A stretch of 18,091 bases of DNA from an uncultured Clostridium sp. (lineage in GTDB: Bacteria; Bacillota; Clostridia; Peptostreptococcales; Peptostreptococcaceae). The translations under genes were made by a program, and so were the position numbers. Below the pieces are notes generated by a model. That model made no database searches and was not told the DNA's origin. It was given only the letters and a program-made list of their open reading frames with translations. This document shows, in pieces, positions 4,004-9,368 of this stretch. How positions within the stretch are numbered: the first letter of the stretch is position 1; the number at the start of each line of letters is the position of its first letter. The stretch spans positions 1-18,091 of the forward strand of contig URRU01000016.1 in assembly GCA_900550335.1 (NCBI GenBank). Direction: 5' to 3'.

Positions 4004-4036
4004 TGAATTAAATATTTTAAAAATTCTAAAAAAACG

Positions 4037-4065
4037 TTTACCTAAATAAAAATAAATGAGATAAT
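4037..4065 (+). promoter_or_regulatory. Putative sigma-A promoter for the DUF3592/hscC operon
   Basis: TTTACC at 4037-4042 and GATAAT at 4060-4065 are separated by exactly 17 nt, about 30 nt ahead of the next start codon and just after the preceding terminator. Four of six bases match the -35 consensus and five of six the -10 consensus. Confidence 0.6.
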
Positions 4066-4096
4066 AAAAAAAAGAGATAAGTTCGGGGGAATTAAT

Positions 4097-4648
4097 ATGC
4101 TTAAGATAGGATTGCTTATAATAGGTCTAGGAATTTTTATAATAGCTATGTCTGGTAGTAAATACAGCAAAAATGAAGATGATTCTAAAAAAGTTGGAAT
4201 TGCTATTACAATATTTGGGATAGCATTTCTTGCAACAGGACTAGATAGTTCTGGAAGGGCAAGTTTTGCACTTATAGGAATAACATTTGGTGGATTTATG
4301 GTATATGTAGGCATAGAAGAAATAAAAACTATATTAAAATGCAATCAAGAGGTAGATGCAAAACTAGAAGGATTCTTAGAGAAAAAGGGCAGAAGTAGCA
4401 TTTATTTTCCTATAATGAGCTTTAATTATAATGGTAGAAAATACAAGATAAAATCGGAAAATTCAATGTATGAGGGTGCTATGAAATCATATCAAGACAC
4501 AGAAACTCATACTGTTTATATAAATCCAAGTGATCCAAGTCAGATGAGATATAATAGAAAGCCTTCTATATACATGTACACAGGATTTATATTAGGATGT
4601 TTATTTTTAATAGCGAGTATAAAAATTTTATTAATAGGTAGAATCTAG
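4097..4648 (+). CDS. DUF3592-like integral membrane protein
   Basis: This is a 183-residue protein of unknown function. Hydrophobic segments lie near residues 2-18, 33-49, 57-73 and 161-180, giving three N-terminal membrane spans, a soluble segment of about 85 residues, and one C-terminal span. The soluble part contains a pattern of the form YFPIMSFNYNGRKYKIKS followed by TVYINPSDPSQMRYN. That 'Y-P-x-F-x-Y-x-G ... Y-x-N-P-x-x-P' layout is what I associate with DUF3592. There is no signal peptide cleavage pattern. A GGGGGA ribosome site lies 8 nt upstream of the ATG. It is the first gene after a promoter, and no terminator separates it from hscC 64 nt downstream, so co-transcription with the chaperone pair is likely. 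The domain name is a recognition by eye, not a search result. Confidence 0.75.
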   Translation: MLKIGLLIIGLGIFIIAMSGSKYSKNEDDSKKVGIAITIFGIAFLATGLDSSGRASFALIGITFGGFMVYVGIEEIKTILKCNQEVDAKLEGFLEKKGRSSIYFPIMSFNYNGRKYKIKSENSMYEGAMKSYQDTETHTVYINPSDPSQMRYNRKPSIYMYTGFILGCLFLIASIKILLIGRI

Positions 4649-4712
4649 AATATAAAATAAAATTTTATAAATTAAGTAAAAATAAAATTTCAAGAAAAGG
4701 AGAGTTGATATT

Positions 4713-6494
4713 ATGGCTGTGATAGGTATAGATTTAGGAACTACAAATAGTATAGCTGTTGTTTTTAGAAATGGAGAAGTAGAGATGATACCTAATTCAT
4801 TTGGCGAATATCTTACTCCTAGTGTAGTTACAATAGAAAATAATGAACTTATAGTTGGAAAAATAGCAAGACAAAAGCTTGTTACTAGTCCAGAAAATAC
4901 AACATCTCTGTTTAAAAGAGATATGGGAAATGACAAGAAAATAAAACTAGGTAAAAAAATGTATTTACCTCAAGAATTATCTGCATTGCTTTTAAAACAG
5001 CTTATAAATGATGCAGAAAAATATTTAAATGAAAAAGTAGAAGAAGTTGTTATAAGTGTACCTGCATACTTTAATGCAAAACAGAGAAGAGCTACAAAAC
5101 TAGCAGGAGAAATAATAGGGGTTAAGGTTGATAGGCTTATAAACGAGCCATCAGCAGCTGCAATTGCATGTCATGAAGAAGAGTTTGAAACATTTATAAT
5201 ATTTGACTTTGGTGGAGGAACACTTGATGTTTCTGTTGTGGATTGTTTTGAAAATGTAGTTAGTATATGCTCAATAGCTGGAAATAATAGACTAGGTGGA
5301 ATTGATTTTGATAGGGCAATTGCGATGTATTTCTGTCAACAAAATAAAATAGACTATAATTCTCTTATAAGAGCTGAAAAAGAAAGTCTATTTTTAGCAT
5401 CAGAAAGAACTAAAATATCTCTACAAAATAAGGATGAAGCTGGTATGAGTATGTCTATAAGAGGAAAATCATACTCTACAAAAATTAGCAATGAAGTATT
5501 GGCATTAATTTCTAAGCCTATTTTAGACGAAATTAGAGAAGTTATAAGAAGGGCTGTAAAAGATAGTGGCTTTGAACCTTCTGAAATAGACAAGATGATA
5601 ATGGTTGGTGGATCTAGCTATATGCCTGTAGTTAGAGATTATTTAGAAAAACTTTTAAAGATACCTGTATCATCAGCAGATGATATAGATTGTATGGTAG
5701 CAAAGGGCTTGGGAAAATATTTAGGAATTAAACAAAGATGTAGCGAGGTAAAGAACTTAGTTGTTACAGATATTTGTCCGTTTTCATTGAGTACACCTAT
5801 AGTAAATGAGTCTGATAAAGGAAATCCTCTAGCAAAAGTTATAATACCTAAAAATACAGTACTTCCATCAAGCAAGACTGTAACACTTCAAGCGTATAAA
5901 AGAGGACAAAAGAATATATTAATATCAGTGTATCAAGGCGAAGAAATGTATGAAAGTGATAATATATTACTTGGGCGCACAGATATAAAAATTCCTCGAA
6001 ACTTCAAGGAAAATGAACAGTTTAATATAACATATTCTTATGATATAAACAGTATGTTATATGTAGAAATTGAAATAATATCTACTGGAGAAAAGAAAGT
6101 ATTTATAGTAGGAGAAGATAAAAAATTAGAATCAATAAAAGAAAATAAACAGCTAAAGGCTATAAAAGAAATATCTATAAAATTAAACAGTAGCCCAGAG
6201 TATGATGCATGTAAAGAGAGAACAAAAAGGATATTTAAGGAATTATCTCCTGAGTATAAAGATATTTTACGGGAAAGAATGGAATCTTTAGATATTATGT
6301 ATAATGACTGTGTAAATAATATACAGAAAAAAAGAGCAATTGTAGAAGAAATGGACAGAATACTGGATATATTCGATAGTTTTTCTAGATTTGATGAATC
6401 TGATATATTTTCTGATTTAGAAAATGAAGAAAAAAATAGTATATTGAAGGATGATATTAAGGTATTTGATGGTACAGGAGGGAGAGTATCATGA
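4713..6494 (+). CDS. hscC: HscC-type Hsp70 chaperone
   Basis: This 593-residue Hsp70 is an ATP-dependent cytoplasmic chaperone, but of the HscC branch rather than housekeeping DnaK. The ATPase domain has the phosphate-1 loop GIDLGTTNS (residues 5-13), the VPAYFNAKQR and NEPSAAAIA stretches, the phosphate-2 loop FDFGGGTLDV, and the adenosine motif MVGGSSYMP. HscC-like traits are FGEYLTPS near the N-terminus, SLFKRDMG, and a linker/SBD junction reading VVTDICPFSL instead of DnaK's DVTPLSLG. The C-terminal lid is short and charged, with no EEVD-like tail. AAGGAGAG (4697-4704) supports the start. The stop overlaps the start of the J-domain gene (ATGA), implying translational coupling and a fixed partnership. 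In E. coli, HscC likewise works with membrane-anchored J proteins (DjlB/DjlC). The substrate is unknown. Confidence 0.88.
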   Translation: MAVIGIDLGTTNSIAVVFRNGEVEMIPNSFGEYLTPSVVTIENNELIVGKIARQKLVTSPENTTSLFKRDMGNDKKIKLGKKMYLPQELSALLLKQLINDAEKYLNEKVEEVVISVPAYFNAKQRRATKLAGEIIGVKVDRLINEPSAAAIACHEEEFETFIIFDFGGGTLDVSVVDCFENVVSICSIAGNNRLGGIDFDRAIAMYFCQQNKIDYNSLIRAEKESLFLASERTKISLQNKDEAGMSMSIRGKSYSTKISNEVLALISKPILDEIREVIRRAVKDSGFEPSEIDKMIMVGGSSYMPVVRDYLEKLLKIPVSSADDIDCMVAKGLGKYLGIKQRCSEVKNLVVTDICPFSLSTPIVNESDKGNPLAKVIIPKNTVLPSSKTVTLQAYKRGQKNILISVYQGEEMYESDNILLGRTDIKIPRNFKENEQFNITYSYDINSMLYVEIEIISTGEKKVFIVGEDKKLESIKENKQLKAIKEISIKLNSSPEYDACKERTKRIFKELSPEYKDILRERMESLDIMYNDCVNNIQKKRAIVEEMDRILDIFDSFSRFDESDIFSDLENEEKNSILKDDIKVFDGTGGRVS

Positions 6495-7816
6495 TAGAAA
6501 GTATTTGGGATATTTTGGGCATAGAGCCGACGAGTGATAGAAAGAAAATAAAAAAAGCCTATGCTGAAAAGACAAAGATATACCATCCTGAGGATTATCC
6601 AGAAGAATTTAAAATAGTCCAGGAGGCATATCAATGGGCTATGAAATATGCAAGTAAATCCGTAGTAAATAATTCTATAGAATCTGAAAAAGTTGAACAT
6701 TTATTTGATAATAATGTAGAAATTACTTCCAAGGATATAGAGCCGAATTATAGTACTGTAGAAAATATTTCGACTAAATCTCAAAATGAAAAAACACAGA
6801 TAGAAGTAGATTATTCAGACTTAGAAGAAGAAAATCTAGAATTTAAAAATAAGAAAATAGAAGAAGTAGAAAAAATAGAGGAAAAAAATTCTGATAGCAA
6901 AACATTTACAGGCGGAGAAATTTTTAATGAATTATATGATGAAAGAACTAGGGATGATGAAATTGATCAAATGAATTATTTTCTAAATTATATAGAAAAG
7001 AAAATCCCTAAAAAGATAAATATGGAAATGTTTAGGCTAATTTTATCTAATTCGTATGTAAAATCGTATTTAGAACAGCCAGATTTTAAAATTAGATTTG
7101 AAGAAATAATGGTAAATAAATCTTATGCAGATACTTTATATACAGAAAAGAAAATGTCTGAGATAGCAAGAAAATATAATTTATACAAGGTTGCTAGAGC
7201 TATAGATAAGGCGACTAAGCAGCGTTATATACTTGGAATGAGAACGCCTGTATTTATTTTAGGAGTTTTGGTAGTTATATCAGGATTATTCTTAAAAATA
7301 GAAAGTAAAAAGGCTGAAAAAGCAGAACAAATATCTAAAACTATTTCTCAAAGTATAGAAAAAAGTGGAGAAACTGTACATAAGATAAGAGAATCTATGC
7401 TAAATACATCTTTAATAATAAATAGAGATTTTATAAATGGATATGATGTAAAAGTTGAAAAGGATGATGGATACTATACTATATTAAACTCTGATGAAAA
7501 GCCCGTTATTGATAAGGTGAATAAGATAGAATTTACTATGTCTAACTTAATACTATTAAATAAAGGTGGGGTGTATAGCATATTAGATACTAAAAATGGA
7601 AATATAGTAAATACAGATTATAAGGATTTAAAAGTGGCAGATATTATTGAAGATGGAGAAAAAAGATACGGTATTTTGGGAATGGATCAAAATAAAAATT
7701 GGTACATAGTTGATGATAAAGGAAATAGTATAAAAAAGGTAAATGGAGAGGAAACCATTGGAAAATTAAAAGTTGAGCTAAAAGATGGAAAAGCTATCTT
7801 TGCTAATGAAGAATAA
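6491..7816 (+). CDS. Membrane-anchored J-domain co-chaperone with HPE in place of HPD
   Basis: This 441-residue protein starts inside the hscC stop codon (ATGA, with GGAGGGA at 6478-6484). Residues 1-50 read as a compact J domain, with WDILGIEPTSDRKKIKKAYA as helices I-II and a loop H32-P33-E34. The usual HPD aspartate, which contacts the Hsp70, is glutamate here. Helix III follows (FKIVQEAYQWAMKYA). An acidic, Lys/Glu-rich, probably disordered stretch occupies about residues 55-150. One transmembrane segment lies at about 253-269, followed by positive charges and a predicted helix. The C-terminal part (about 310-441) is beta-rich with repeated Ile/Val-Leu-Asp/Asn-x-Lys/Gly-Gly units, reminiscent of WG-type repeats. 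The likely topology is J domain inside and C-terminal part outside. It would direct HscC to the membrane, but its client is unknown. Confidence 0.8.
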   Translation: MIESIWDILGIEPTSDRKKIKKAYAEKTKIYHPEDYPEEFKIVQEAYQWAMKYASKSVVNNSIESEKVEHLFDNNVEITSKDIEPNYSTVENISTKSQNEKTQIEVDYSDLEEENLEFKNKKIEEVEKIEEKNSDSKTFTGGEIFNELYDERTRDDEIDQMNYFLNYIEKKIPKKINMEMFRLILSNSYVKSYLEQPDFKIRFEEIMVNKSYADTLYTEKKMSEIARKYNLYKVARAIDKATKQRYILGMRTPVFILGVLVVISGLFLKIESKKAEKAEQISKTISQSIEKSGETVHKIRESMLNTSLIINRDFINGYDVKVEKDDGYYTILNSDEKPVIDKVNKIEFTMSNLILLNKGGVYSILDTKNGNIVNTDYKDLKVADIIEDGEKRYGILGMDQNKNWYIVDDKGNSIKKVNGEETIGKLKVELKDGKAIFANEE

Positions 7817-7828
7817 CAGAAGAATTTT

Positions 7829-7875
7829 AAGAGATAACTATAAATTGAAAAAAACTATAGTTATCTCTTTTTTTA
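7829..7875 (+). terminator. Intrinsic terminator after the hscC / J-protein operon
   Basis: AGAGATAACTATA (7830-7842) pairs perfectly with TATAGTTATCTCT (7856-7868) across a 13-nt A-rich loop, and a run of T follows. It lies 14 nt after the J-protein stop codon. Confidence 0.88.
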
Positions 7876-7917
7876 TAGAAAAATGTTTATCTAATATACT
7901 TGGGGGTATAAGGTAAA

Positions 7918-7939
7918 TATACTCAAAATAGAGTATAAT
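7918..7939 (+). promoter_or_regulatory. Operator-like palindrome overlapping a -10 box
   Basis: TATACTC (7918-7924), a 6-nt spacer and GAGTATA (7931-7937) form a perfect 7-bp inverted repeat. It overlaps a consensus -10 TATAAT (7934-7939). No good -35 is visible at the usual distance: AGGTAA lies 17 nt upstream and TTGGGG further away. A protein bound at this dyad would block the -10, so repression is plausible. The regulator is unknown. Confidence 0.5.
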
Positions 7940-7968
7940 GGTAGGATTTCTTAAATAGGAGGGAAAAA

Positions 7969-8412
7969 ATGATTCAGTTAATACTAGTTGTATTTGTTGT
8001 GATGCTTATTTATTCATTTATGAGATCTAAAAAAGAGATGGAAAGACAACAAGCTCAGAGAGATGAGATAAATGCTAAAAAAAATACTGCTATTGATAGA
8101 TTAGGCTTAAATGAAAAAGCTTCAGCAAAAGATAAAGAGGATAGAGTATTTATACTTGCAGAAAATAATGAAGTATATGTATTCAATCCAAAAGATGATT
8201 CTATTGATAAAATAGAGGGTATAAAGAAAATAAGTTCTAAGAGAAGATATGCAACAGCTAAAGCTGGTTGAGCCACTTGTACTCAGCTGCAGGATGCAGT
8301 TTTAAAGATAGAATTAGAAGATGGAGAATATCTATCAGAATTTGATGTTTATGAGGTTAGGGCTGTTGAAAAATTTGAAGAATTAGTTTCAGAAGAATTA
8401 GGACTAATATAA
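7969..8412 (+). CDS. Small membrane protein with in-frame TGA: candidate selenoprotein
   Basis: From the ATG (ribosome site AGGAGGG just upstream) the frame runs 100 codons to a TGA at 8269-8271. It then stays open for 46 more sense codons to TAA at 8410-8412, giving 147 residues if TGA is read as selenocysteine. Residues 2-18 form one transmembrane segment. A charged helical stretch follows (19-60), then a soluble domain with beta-type alternation (VFILAENNEVYVFNP ... VLKIELEDGEYLSEFDVYEVRAVEKFEELV) that crosses the TGA without loss of coding character. The reinterpreted site reads Gly-Sec101-Ala-Thr-Cys104, a redox-type UxxC motif. A SECIS-like hairpin follows the TGA. The rest after the stop has no start codon or ribosome site of its own. 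The alternatives are a nonsense mutation in a CxxC or Gly-type gene, or a genuine 100-residue product. I recognise no named family. Confidence 0.55.
8269..8303 (+). promoter_or_regulatory. Candidate bacterial SECIS element
   Basis: Immediately after the in-frame TGA, CTGC (8287-8290) and GCAG (8296-8299) form a stem around the loop AGGAT, extendable by G-T and A-T pairs below. The loop starts 19 nt after the TGA and has a G at its second position, fitting the general bacterial SECIS description (an apical loop roughly 16-37 nt from TGA with an early G). It resembles the E. coli fdhF apical hairpin TTGCAGGTCTGCA. The 29 nt after the TGA are about 55% G+C in a strongly AT-rich window and use rare codons such as GCC and CTG, suggesting selection on RNA structure. 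Confidence 0.5.
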
Positions 8413-8594: not shown

Positions 8595-9368
8595 ATGAAA
8601 ATAGCTTTAGATGAAGTGGAATCACTTTTAAATATGATAGAAAAAATAGAGTTGCATGAAAGTAGAAAATTATTAAGAGTAGGTGCTGGAATAAAAATAC
8701 TTTATCGTGGATACAAAGAAGGAAGCAATGATAGAACATTTTTAGATGATGCTAGAGTGGACTTATTTTTAATATATGAGGAAGATGGAGAGGAATATTT
8801 AACAAAGCTAACTCAAAAAGTTGGCTACAGTACAATAAATTATACAAATAGTGCATTTAAAGTAGATGATTTATACGATGCGACAATAACGATAGATGAT
8901 ACTGAAAAATGGCGGTTAAATAAACAGATAAAGGACTTTATAGAAGACTTTAAAGCCAAAAATTTCTTTAGCAAAGTAAGATATTTTACTGATAGAAATA
9001 GTGTAAATATGCTTGTAGAGGATATATCTAAGCTAAAAGAAATGACAATGTTTAGTAGATATACTGGTGAGGATATGACAAAGATAGAGTATATGACTAA
9101 TTTTATGTACTACATAGAAAAAGAATTTAATGGTGTAAAAACTAGCGATATAGATAAATATAAAATGGAAGAATTTGAAAATATGGACTTTATAGGTTGG
9201 CTTATAAAATCTGGTGAAATGGGAGATTACTTAGAGTGGAGAAGTGAAAAAAGTGATCTAGGTGGATGTATAATTCAGGTTGATGAAGGTAAAGTTAATC
9301 CTAAAGTATTTGAAAAAATGTTAGAAAATGAAAATATAAGAGAGCTAAATATAAAATTTAGACGATAA
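8595..9368 (+). CDS. Uncharacterised 257-residue soluble protein
   Basis: I do not recognise a family. The product has no signal peptide or transmembrane segment and is rich in charged residues (Lys, Glu, Asp). It looks alpha/beta. The N-terminal helix (DEVESLLNMIEKIEL) is followed by strands around residues 27-40 and 52-62. A pattern EEYLTKLTQKVGYSTINYT follows, then alternating helices, with a final strand segment around GCIIQVDEGKVNP. Only one Cys is present (in GGCII) and there are no obvious metal or nucleotide motifs. The ATG has an AGAGGCG-type ribosome site 8 nt upstream. It stands between a promoter and the HAD gene 76 nt downstream, and no T-tailed terminator separates the two, so they may be co-transcribed. 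Codon use looks like its neighbours. It is a real gene on length and signals, with unknown function. Confidence 0.75.
   Translation: MKIALDEVESLLNMIEKIELHESRKLLRVGAGIKILYRGYKEGSNDRTFLDDARVDLFLIYEEDGEEYLTKLTQKVGYSTINYTNSAFKVDDLYDATITIDDTEKWRLNKQIKDFIEDFKAKNFFSKVRYFTDRNSVNMLVEDISKLKEMTMFSRYTGEDMTKIEYMTNFMYYIEKEFNGVKTSDIDKYKMEEFENMDFIGWLIKSGEMGDYLEWRSEKSDLGGCIIQVDEGKVNPKVFEKMLENENIRELNIKFRR

Follow-up and report, generated by a model that had tools for sequence, protein, structure and literature searches.

The described selenoproteins that most resemble the gene analyzed here are those with a U-x-x-C site, among them the selenocysteine (Sec) thioredoxin, glycine reductase B, and D-proline reductase listed in Table 1 of PMC13188914. 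Our subject is a gene at positions 7969 to 8412 of an 18,091-nucleotide stretch of DNA from an uncultured Clostridium sp. (contig URRU01000016.1; hereafter the window), which carries an in-frame TGA at position 8269. It is like these proteins in having a UGA followed by a hairpin, a U-x-x-C motif, and an accompanying Sec machinery but differs from them in its single N-terminal membrane anchor, in having no Pfam domain over the cut-off and no cysteine (Cys) homologue that we could find, and in a likeness that is limited to the short motif. The deep-Sep proteins DG, DW, and DF (PMC12013277) are likewise hypothetical, are without a conserved domain, and have a structure resembling a selenocysteine insertion sequence (SECIS) after the TGA. 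These proteins come from Desulfosediminicola and Desulfosarcina and are described as having Cys homologues in varied organisms, whereas our gene is clostridial and no Cys homologue was found. No entry among the 119 prokaryotic selenoprotein families catalogued in Table 1 of PMC13188914 was recognized as our protein in a comparison made by models and motifs rather than by full architectures, which covered the Pfam and NCBIfam models and set aside the few CDD and PANTHER models of that table. Similarly, none of the literature matches listed for selenoproteins of Peptacetobacter or Clostridium hiranonis was recognized, from titles and abstract openings, as dealing with this gene. On the basis of the sequence comparisons reported below, we consider it highly likely that positions 7969 to 8412 are a selenoprotein gene of Peptacetobacter in which the TGA at 8269 is recoded to Sec, and this gene very probably represents a new, genus-restricted selenoprotein family.

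The in-frame TGA and the frame beyond it

The conventional open reading frame (ORF) spans positions 7969 to 8271 and encodes 100 amino acids, being closed by the TGA at 8269 to 8271. Our reading of the ORF confirmed the original prediction that the frame continues past this codon for 46 sense codons and ends at a TAA. The continuation has no ATG, GTG, or TTG start in frame, as judged from the window sequence and its ORF list, and the terminator that had been proposed after the TAA corresponds to a computed terminator-like hairpin (Table 1). In a first-order Markov model, 46 codons would remain open by chance with a probability of 0.0097 when the model is built on the whole window and 0.0053 when it is built on intergenic DNA. 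Past their own stops, 13 of the 14 other tallied window genes remain open for 0 to 9 codons, and the remaining one is open for 38. Taken alone, the openness of the 46 codons is modest evidence, and it is the homologues that decide the matter.

Homologues occur in all three other Peptacetobacter genomes examined (G001, G002, and G003, with G001 the nearest to the window), a genus within the Peptostreptococcaceae. A search of the 61 genomes around the nearest one gave three matches, all within one genus and each with a single internal stop, which was a TGA. The codon at position 101, whose identity in homologues had been suggested as a check, is TGA in all four genes read as DNA (window, G001, G002, and G003), including that of G003 at approximately 30% protein identity. 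Over the whole protein, G002 and G001 are each 63% identical to the window, and G003 is 29% identical; the corresponding values are 57%, 61%, and 27% before the TGA and 77%, 67%, and 33% after it, and the post-TGA part is better conserved than the pre-TGA part in all six pairs of the four genes. NG86 estimates placed the nonsynonymous rate (dN) below the synonymous rate (dS) after the TGA in 6/6 pairs, with those involving G003 near saturation; dN and dS were 0.19 and 0.70 for the window and G002, 0.26 and 0.84 for the window and G001, and 0.26 and 1.24 for G002 and G001. In each of the four genes, the frame is closed by TAA.

These findings bear on the alternative that the TGA is a true stop yielding a 100-residue product, with the downstream frame being a decayed remnant or a chance opening. 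Standard gene calls do end at this codon (18 of 29 database records), but the downstream frame shows protein-level conservation across four genomes, is closed by TAA in each, lacks an in-frame start, and contains a covarying hairpin fixed at position +20, all of which argue against termination. Furthermore, at approximately 30% identity, a decayed remnant would hardly have kept its frame together with the TGA and the +3 Cys. We regard a true stop as very unlikely.

Three protein searches (5, 19, and 20 rows) gave 29 distinct database records of the protein. The expectation that gene callers would cut the product to 100 residues was borne out by the 18 records whose last residue directly precedes the TGA column; the title of one is 'hypothetical protein [Peptacetobacter hiranonis].' Homologues ending naturally at residue 100 had been named as counterevidence; the end of these 18 records is where the TGA would cut. 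Ten others read through, with W at the site in nine and G in one, and one further record, of 81 aa, ends differently. As to an ordinary residue at position 101 in homologues, the DNA has TGA in 4/4 genes, in keeping with the original prediction, and the ten readthrough records, known from protein alone, have W or G.

Taken at face value, the nine W records and the one G record would mean that the TGA encodes tryptophan (or glycine) through suppression or a code change. However, all ten sit on contigs of 534 to 3457 bases, and six (P0002, P0003, P0005, P0006, P0012, and P0024) have a near-identical TGA-cut counterpart matching 97 to 100 of the first 100 residues. P0010 and P0011 have a cut counterpart matching 91 of the first 100 residues; of the other two, P0025 starts internally and P0026 carries a deletion. 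P0002, which has W, is 99% identical to the window protein, whose codon is TGA. The W and G are most simply explained by gene callers applying code 4 or 25 to short contigs. In addition, TGA terminates 1 of the 13 tallied window genes, the code screen in PMC8629427 assigns the codon change of Peptacetobacter to CGG, and the hairpin and Sec machinery described below favor Sec. We consider a tryptophan or glycine reading extremely unlikely. Separately, P0025 holds the Sec domain twice in tandem, which may be an assembly artifact.

Sec machinery and a candidate hairpin

The original prediction hinged on the presence of sel genes, and selA, selB, selC, and selD were all found in the three congeners. 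Each genome has selA (PF03841), selB (TIGR00475) and selD (TIGR00476) above the NCBIfam cut-off, and a tRNA-Sec with anticodon TCA (UCA in RNA) detected by ARAGORN; the Rfam search for tRNA-Sec also responds to ordinary tRNAs. An ARAGORN 'tRNA-Pyl' in G001 was rejected as being, by eye, a tRNA-Arg(UCU). The selD gene of each of the three genomes has its own in-frame TGA in the context G-G-U-A-A-K, and GrdA has one in-frame TGA in 3/3 congeners. A GrdB-type Sec site, S-T-U-G-T-C-T-R-C, was found in five of six near-full-length loci, with the sixth (L034) giving no scan output; in both protein and DNA, this site is like that of our readthrough product, in which residue 101 corresponds to one TGA codon in the context A-G-U-A-T-C-T-Q-L. 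As in established bacterial Sec decoding, SelB would deliver Sec-tRNA(UCA) to the TGA via a downstream hairpin.

A hairpin whose loop begins 20 nt past the TGA, which the original prediction had not mentioned, is a candidate bacterial SECIS (bSECIS). In all four genes, a 3-nt loop starts exactly 20 nt past the TGA on a stem of 6 to 7 bp and has G at loop position 1 or 2 (GGA in the window and G002, AGA in G001, and GTT in G003). The bSECIS consensus given in PMC13188914 comprises a loop of 3 to 9 nt, an upper stem of 4 to 16 bp, a G at the first or second loop position, a distance of 16 to 37 nt from the UGA, and a minimum free energy (MFE) of -7.5 kcal/mol or lower; all four genes conform in loop size, stem length, loop G, and spacing. 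The MFE of the window is -8.1 kcal/mol with the TGA, via this hairpin, and -7.9 kcal/mol without the TGA, via another fold; that of G001 is -9.0 kcal/mol via this hairpin, and that of G003 is -11.3 kcal/mol via another fold. The minimum-energy structure of G001 is this hairpin, as is that of the window with the TGA included. Pairing across the four genes extends to 27 of the 28 cells (96.4%) versus at most 42.9% when the alignment is slid, two of the seven stem pairs are altered on both sides in a compensated manner, and RNAalifold selects the same stem. When codons were resampled synonymously, 14 of 100,000 trials gave all four genes this geometry (stem of at least 5 bp), and 25 of 100,000 gave them any common geometry; the procedure takes the four genes as independent and therefore flatters the result.

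The selD genes encode an unrelated protein and serve as a SECIS model only. In 3/3 genomes, their Sec-TGA has the same geometry, with a 3-nt loop (GGT, GGT, and AGT) exactly 20 nt downstream and a stem of 6 to 7 bp. A census of 3968 TGAs on both strands and in all frames of seven Peptacetobacter stretches found nine with this geometry and a stem of at least 6 bp: the recoded gene accounts for four, one per genome; selD accounts for three, one in each congener; and two are others (L013 2849, plus strand, and L014 12971, minus strand; stem 6). The latter two look like background because by coordinates they lie out of frame inside other ORFs. Since the stretches were chosen for holding the recoded gene or selA, the census shows the rarity of the geometry elsewhere rather than the number of selenoproteins in the genus. 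In the GrdB control, a 3-nt GGT loop lies 18 nt past the TGA on a stem of 5 bp in all five printed loci (L029 to L033). The geometry common to selD and the recoded gene could serve as a signature for finding more selenoproteins in Peptacetobacter.

Several observations, besides the W and G records above, weigh against Sec or against the hairpin as its signal. The MFE of G002 (-5.8 kcal/mol) falls short of the published limit, the stability of the hairpin is unremarkable (z of 0.13 to 0.15 in the window and -0.11 in G002), and other folds are preferred by G002, by G003, and by the 48 nt after the TGA in the window. A shuffle control of the pairing, weak with four sequences, reached the observed value in 68 of 500 cases. 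GrdA has no hairpin of the simple model in any of the three genomes (0/3), and Rfam gave no match in the window at the gathering score. After the TGA, YN00 was usable for the saturated window-G003 pair only, where dN (0.93) exceeded dS (0.64). Finally, no Cys homologue was detected in 71 family, 393 order, or 391 class genomes or among database proteins at an E value of 10 or less, so the search for Cys at position 101 that had been proposed came back empty.

Table 1. Features of the probable recoded gene and its surroundings in the window
Feature	Position	Strand	Basis
Complete gene, very likely recoded; 147-residue protein with Sec101, stop TAA at 8410-8412	7969..8412	+	Frame reading, homologue alignment
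In-frame TGA, very likely read as Sec (U101)	8269..8271	+	TGA at identical column in G001, G002, and G003
C-terminal part, 46 codons, conserved at the protein level after the TGA	8272..8409	+	77% (G002) and 67% (G001) identity; NG86 dN < dS
TGT, Cys104, partner in U-x-x-C	8278..8280	+	Invariant in seven aligned members; sole Cys of soluble domain
Candidate bSECIS hairpin, AGCTGCA-GGA-TGCAGTT	8285..8301	+	Stem of 7 bp; loop of 3 nt starting 20 nt past the TGA
N-terminal transmembrane anchor, approximately residues 1-18, then K/R-rich stretch; C-terminal domain predicted cytosolic	7969..8022	+	Hydropathy, charge count; topology inferred
Ribosome-binding site, AGGAGGG	7957..7963	+	Read from sequence; AGGAGG upstream of ATG
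Terminator-like hairpin past the TAA	8484..8514	+	Approximately 70 nt after TAA; 1 found versus 0.1 expected in regional shuffles
Neighbor gene, 257 aa, no Pfam, NCBIfam, or PADLOC match	8595..9368	+	Adjoins recoded gene in 4/4 genomes

Architecture, possible role, and distribution

The N-terminal membrane anchor that had been predicted was supported by a single hydrophobic stretch, located at the N terminus, in 4/4 proteins. Four to six K/R residues occur in the 15 residues after the anchor and none before it, the latter being trivial where the stretch starts at residue 1 or 2. Because of the positive-inside rule, the domain is likely to face the cytosol, and we infer a single-pass membrane protein of N-out/C-in topology. 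The proposed Gly-Sec-Ala-Thr-Cys site also stood, with TGA at position 101 in every gene and Cys104 invariant in all seven aligned sequences; in each of the four proteins, no Sec or Cys occurs outside the anchor other than this Sec and the Cys three positions after it. Consistent with the original view that no known family matches, neither Pfam nor NCBIfam has a model above cut-off for the protein. The PDB gave a single hit at an E value of 0.9 and no relative below it, and sequence searches found no thioredoxin-like match over the cut-off in Pfam or in the PDB. A PH-like fold was considered as one possibility. A resemblance of residues 55 to 119 to the end of a J-domain neighbor (E value of 0.027) was too weak to use.

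We propose that a reversible selenenylsulfide between Sec101 and Cys104 would be the most likely mechanism and that the product, tethered to the membrane of an anaerobe and exposed to its cytosol, would act as a thiol-selenol oxidoreductase or redox switch. Judged from sequence, such a U-x-x-C redox role is plausible and somewhat probable. Alternatively, the Sec may be real but act as a metal or selenium ligand or be part of a selenium-dependent switch that yields 100 aa without selenium and 147 aa with it. The lack of a Cys form would fit a protein that depends on selenium as such, but Cys104 is invariant at the classical U-x-x-C spacing, and the soluble domain has no further Cys to complete a metal site (His was not tallied). 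We view a ligand or switch in place of thiol redox chemistry as possible but rather doubtful.

Searches of genome samples that overlap one another matched 3 of 71 family genomes, 5 of 393 order genomes (the same three and two weak matches, rejected), and 5 of 391 class genomes (G001 and four weak matches, rejected). Among the rejected genomes, G097, G339, G696, G630, and G694 match only the anchor and coiled-coil side (profile positions up to 87). G444 matches profile positions 71 to 145, but in a histidine-kinase-like segment without the Cys pair, whose HELKTPLSS sequence we take to be that of a histidine kinase. A contig search with the single protein found nothing, and one with the alignment found two Peptacetobacter loci. 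No Sec relative was found outside Peptacetobacter in the same genome and database searches. Distant Cys relatives may exist because such searches are weak for a 147-aa protein at approximately 30% identity within its own genus.

A Cys homologue is a usual, not a required, feature of selenoproteins; according to PMC13188914, nearly all known selenoproteins have one. Cys homologues are needed in one of the two main routes by which bacterial selenoproteins are searched for (PMC13188914) and in the filter of the newest tool (PMC12013277). Because our family is genus restricted and without a detected Cys relative, it escapes Cys-based searches, and it is relevant to the question of whether a protein can acquire Sec other than by replacement of Cys. 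We tentatively raise the idea that a Sec-only family may have arisen as a selenoprotein within a single genus, with no Cys ancestor, that it may form a membrane-tethered, selenium- or redox-dependent switch between 100-aa and 147-aa forms, and that it may be a sign of further lineage-specific bacterial selenoproteins invisible to searches for Cys/Sec pairs. Since Peptacetobacter includes culturable species (PMC8629427), the selenoprotein question is directly testable.

Genomic neighborhood

Downstream of the recoded gene is the gene for a 257-aa protein (Table 1), which within the family is confined to Peptacetobacter (3/71 genomes) and has no similarity to the recoded protein. This neighbor is our best guess for a partner, offered with little confidence. 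An inverted repeat with a T run, seen by eye at approximately 7831 to 7875, lies 3' of the J-domain gene; because of this element upstream and the hairpin after the TAA, the recoded gene appears to form a separate transcription unit. Further downstream in the window are genes for a HAD-type hydrolase, a Usp protein, and rubrerythrin. PADLOC found no match for the recoded gene and four neighbors.

Upstream, an Hsp70-like gene (4713 to 6494) overlaps the J-domain gene (6491 to 7816) by 4 bases, and the J protein has a hydrophobic stretch. Of the 18 family genomes that match the J protein, G001 alone has it at full length; in the remaining 17, the matches are short and mostly N-terminal, and no J-domain protein was found in G002 or G003. 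The G003 stretch has other genes upstream of the recoded gene, and the G002 contig ends just upstream of it. We dropped a link of the recoded gene to the Hsp70/J pair, with the J-domain gene not being a conserved neighbor (Hsp70 was not searched separately).

CGG is used four times in 13 tallied window genes. The code screen in PMC8629427 predicts that CGG encodes glutamine in Peptacetobacter, and for this reason standard translations, such as that of 8595 to 9368, may carry wrong Arg residues. Window positions 4009 to 8412, which hold a DUF3592 gene, the Hsp70-like and J-domain genes, and the recoded gene, have 73 to 84% DNA identity to G001, and most of the window from approximately 10.1 kb on has 95 to 98%. 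The lower identity of the 4009-to-8412 block relative to the rest of the window suggests that it was exchanged or is fast evolving.
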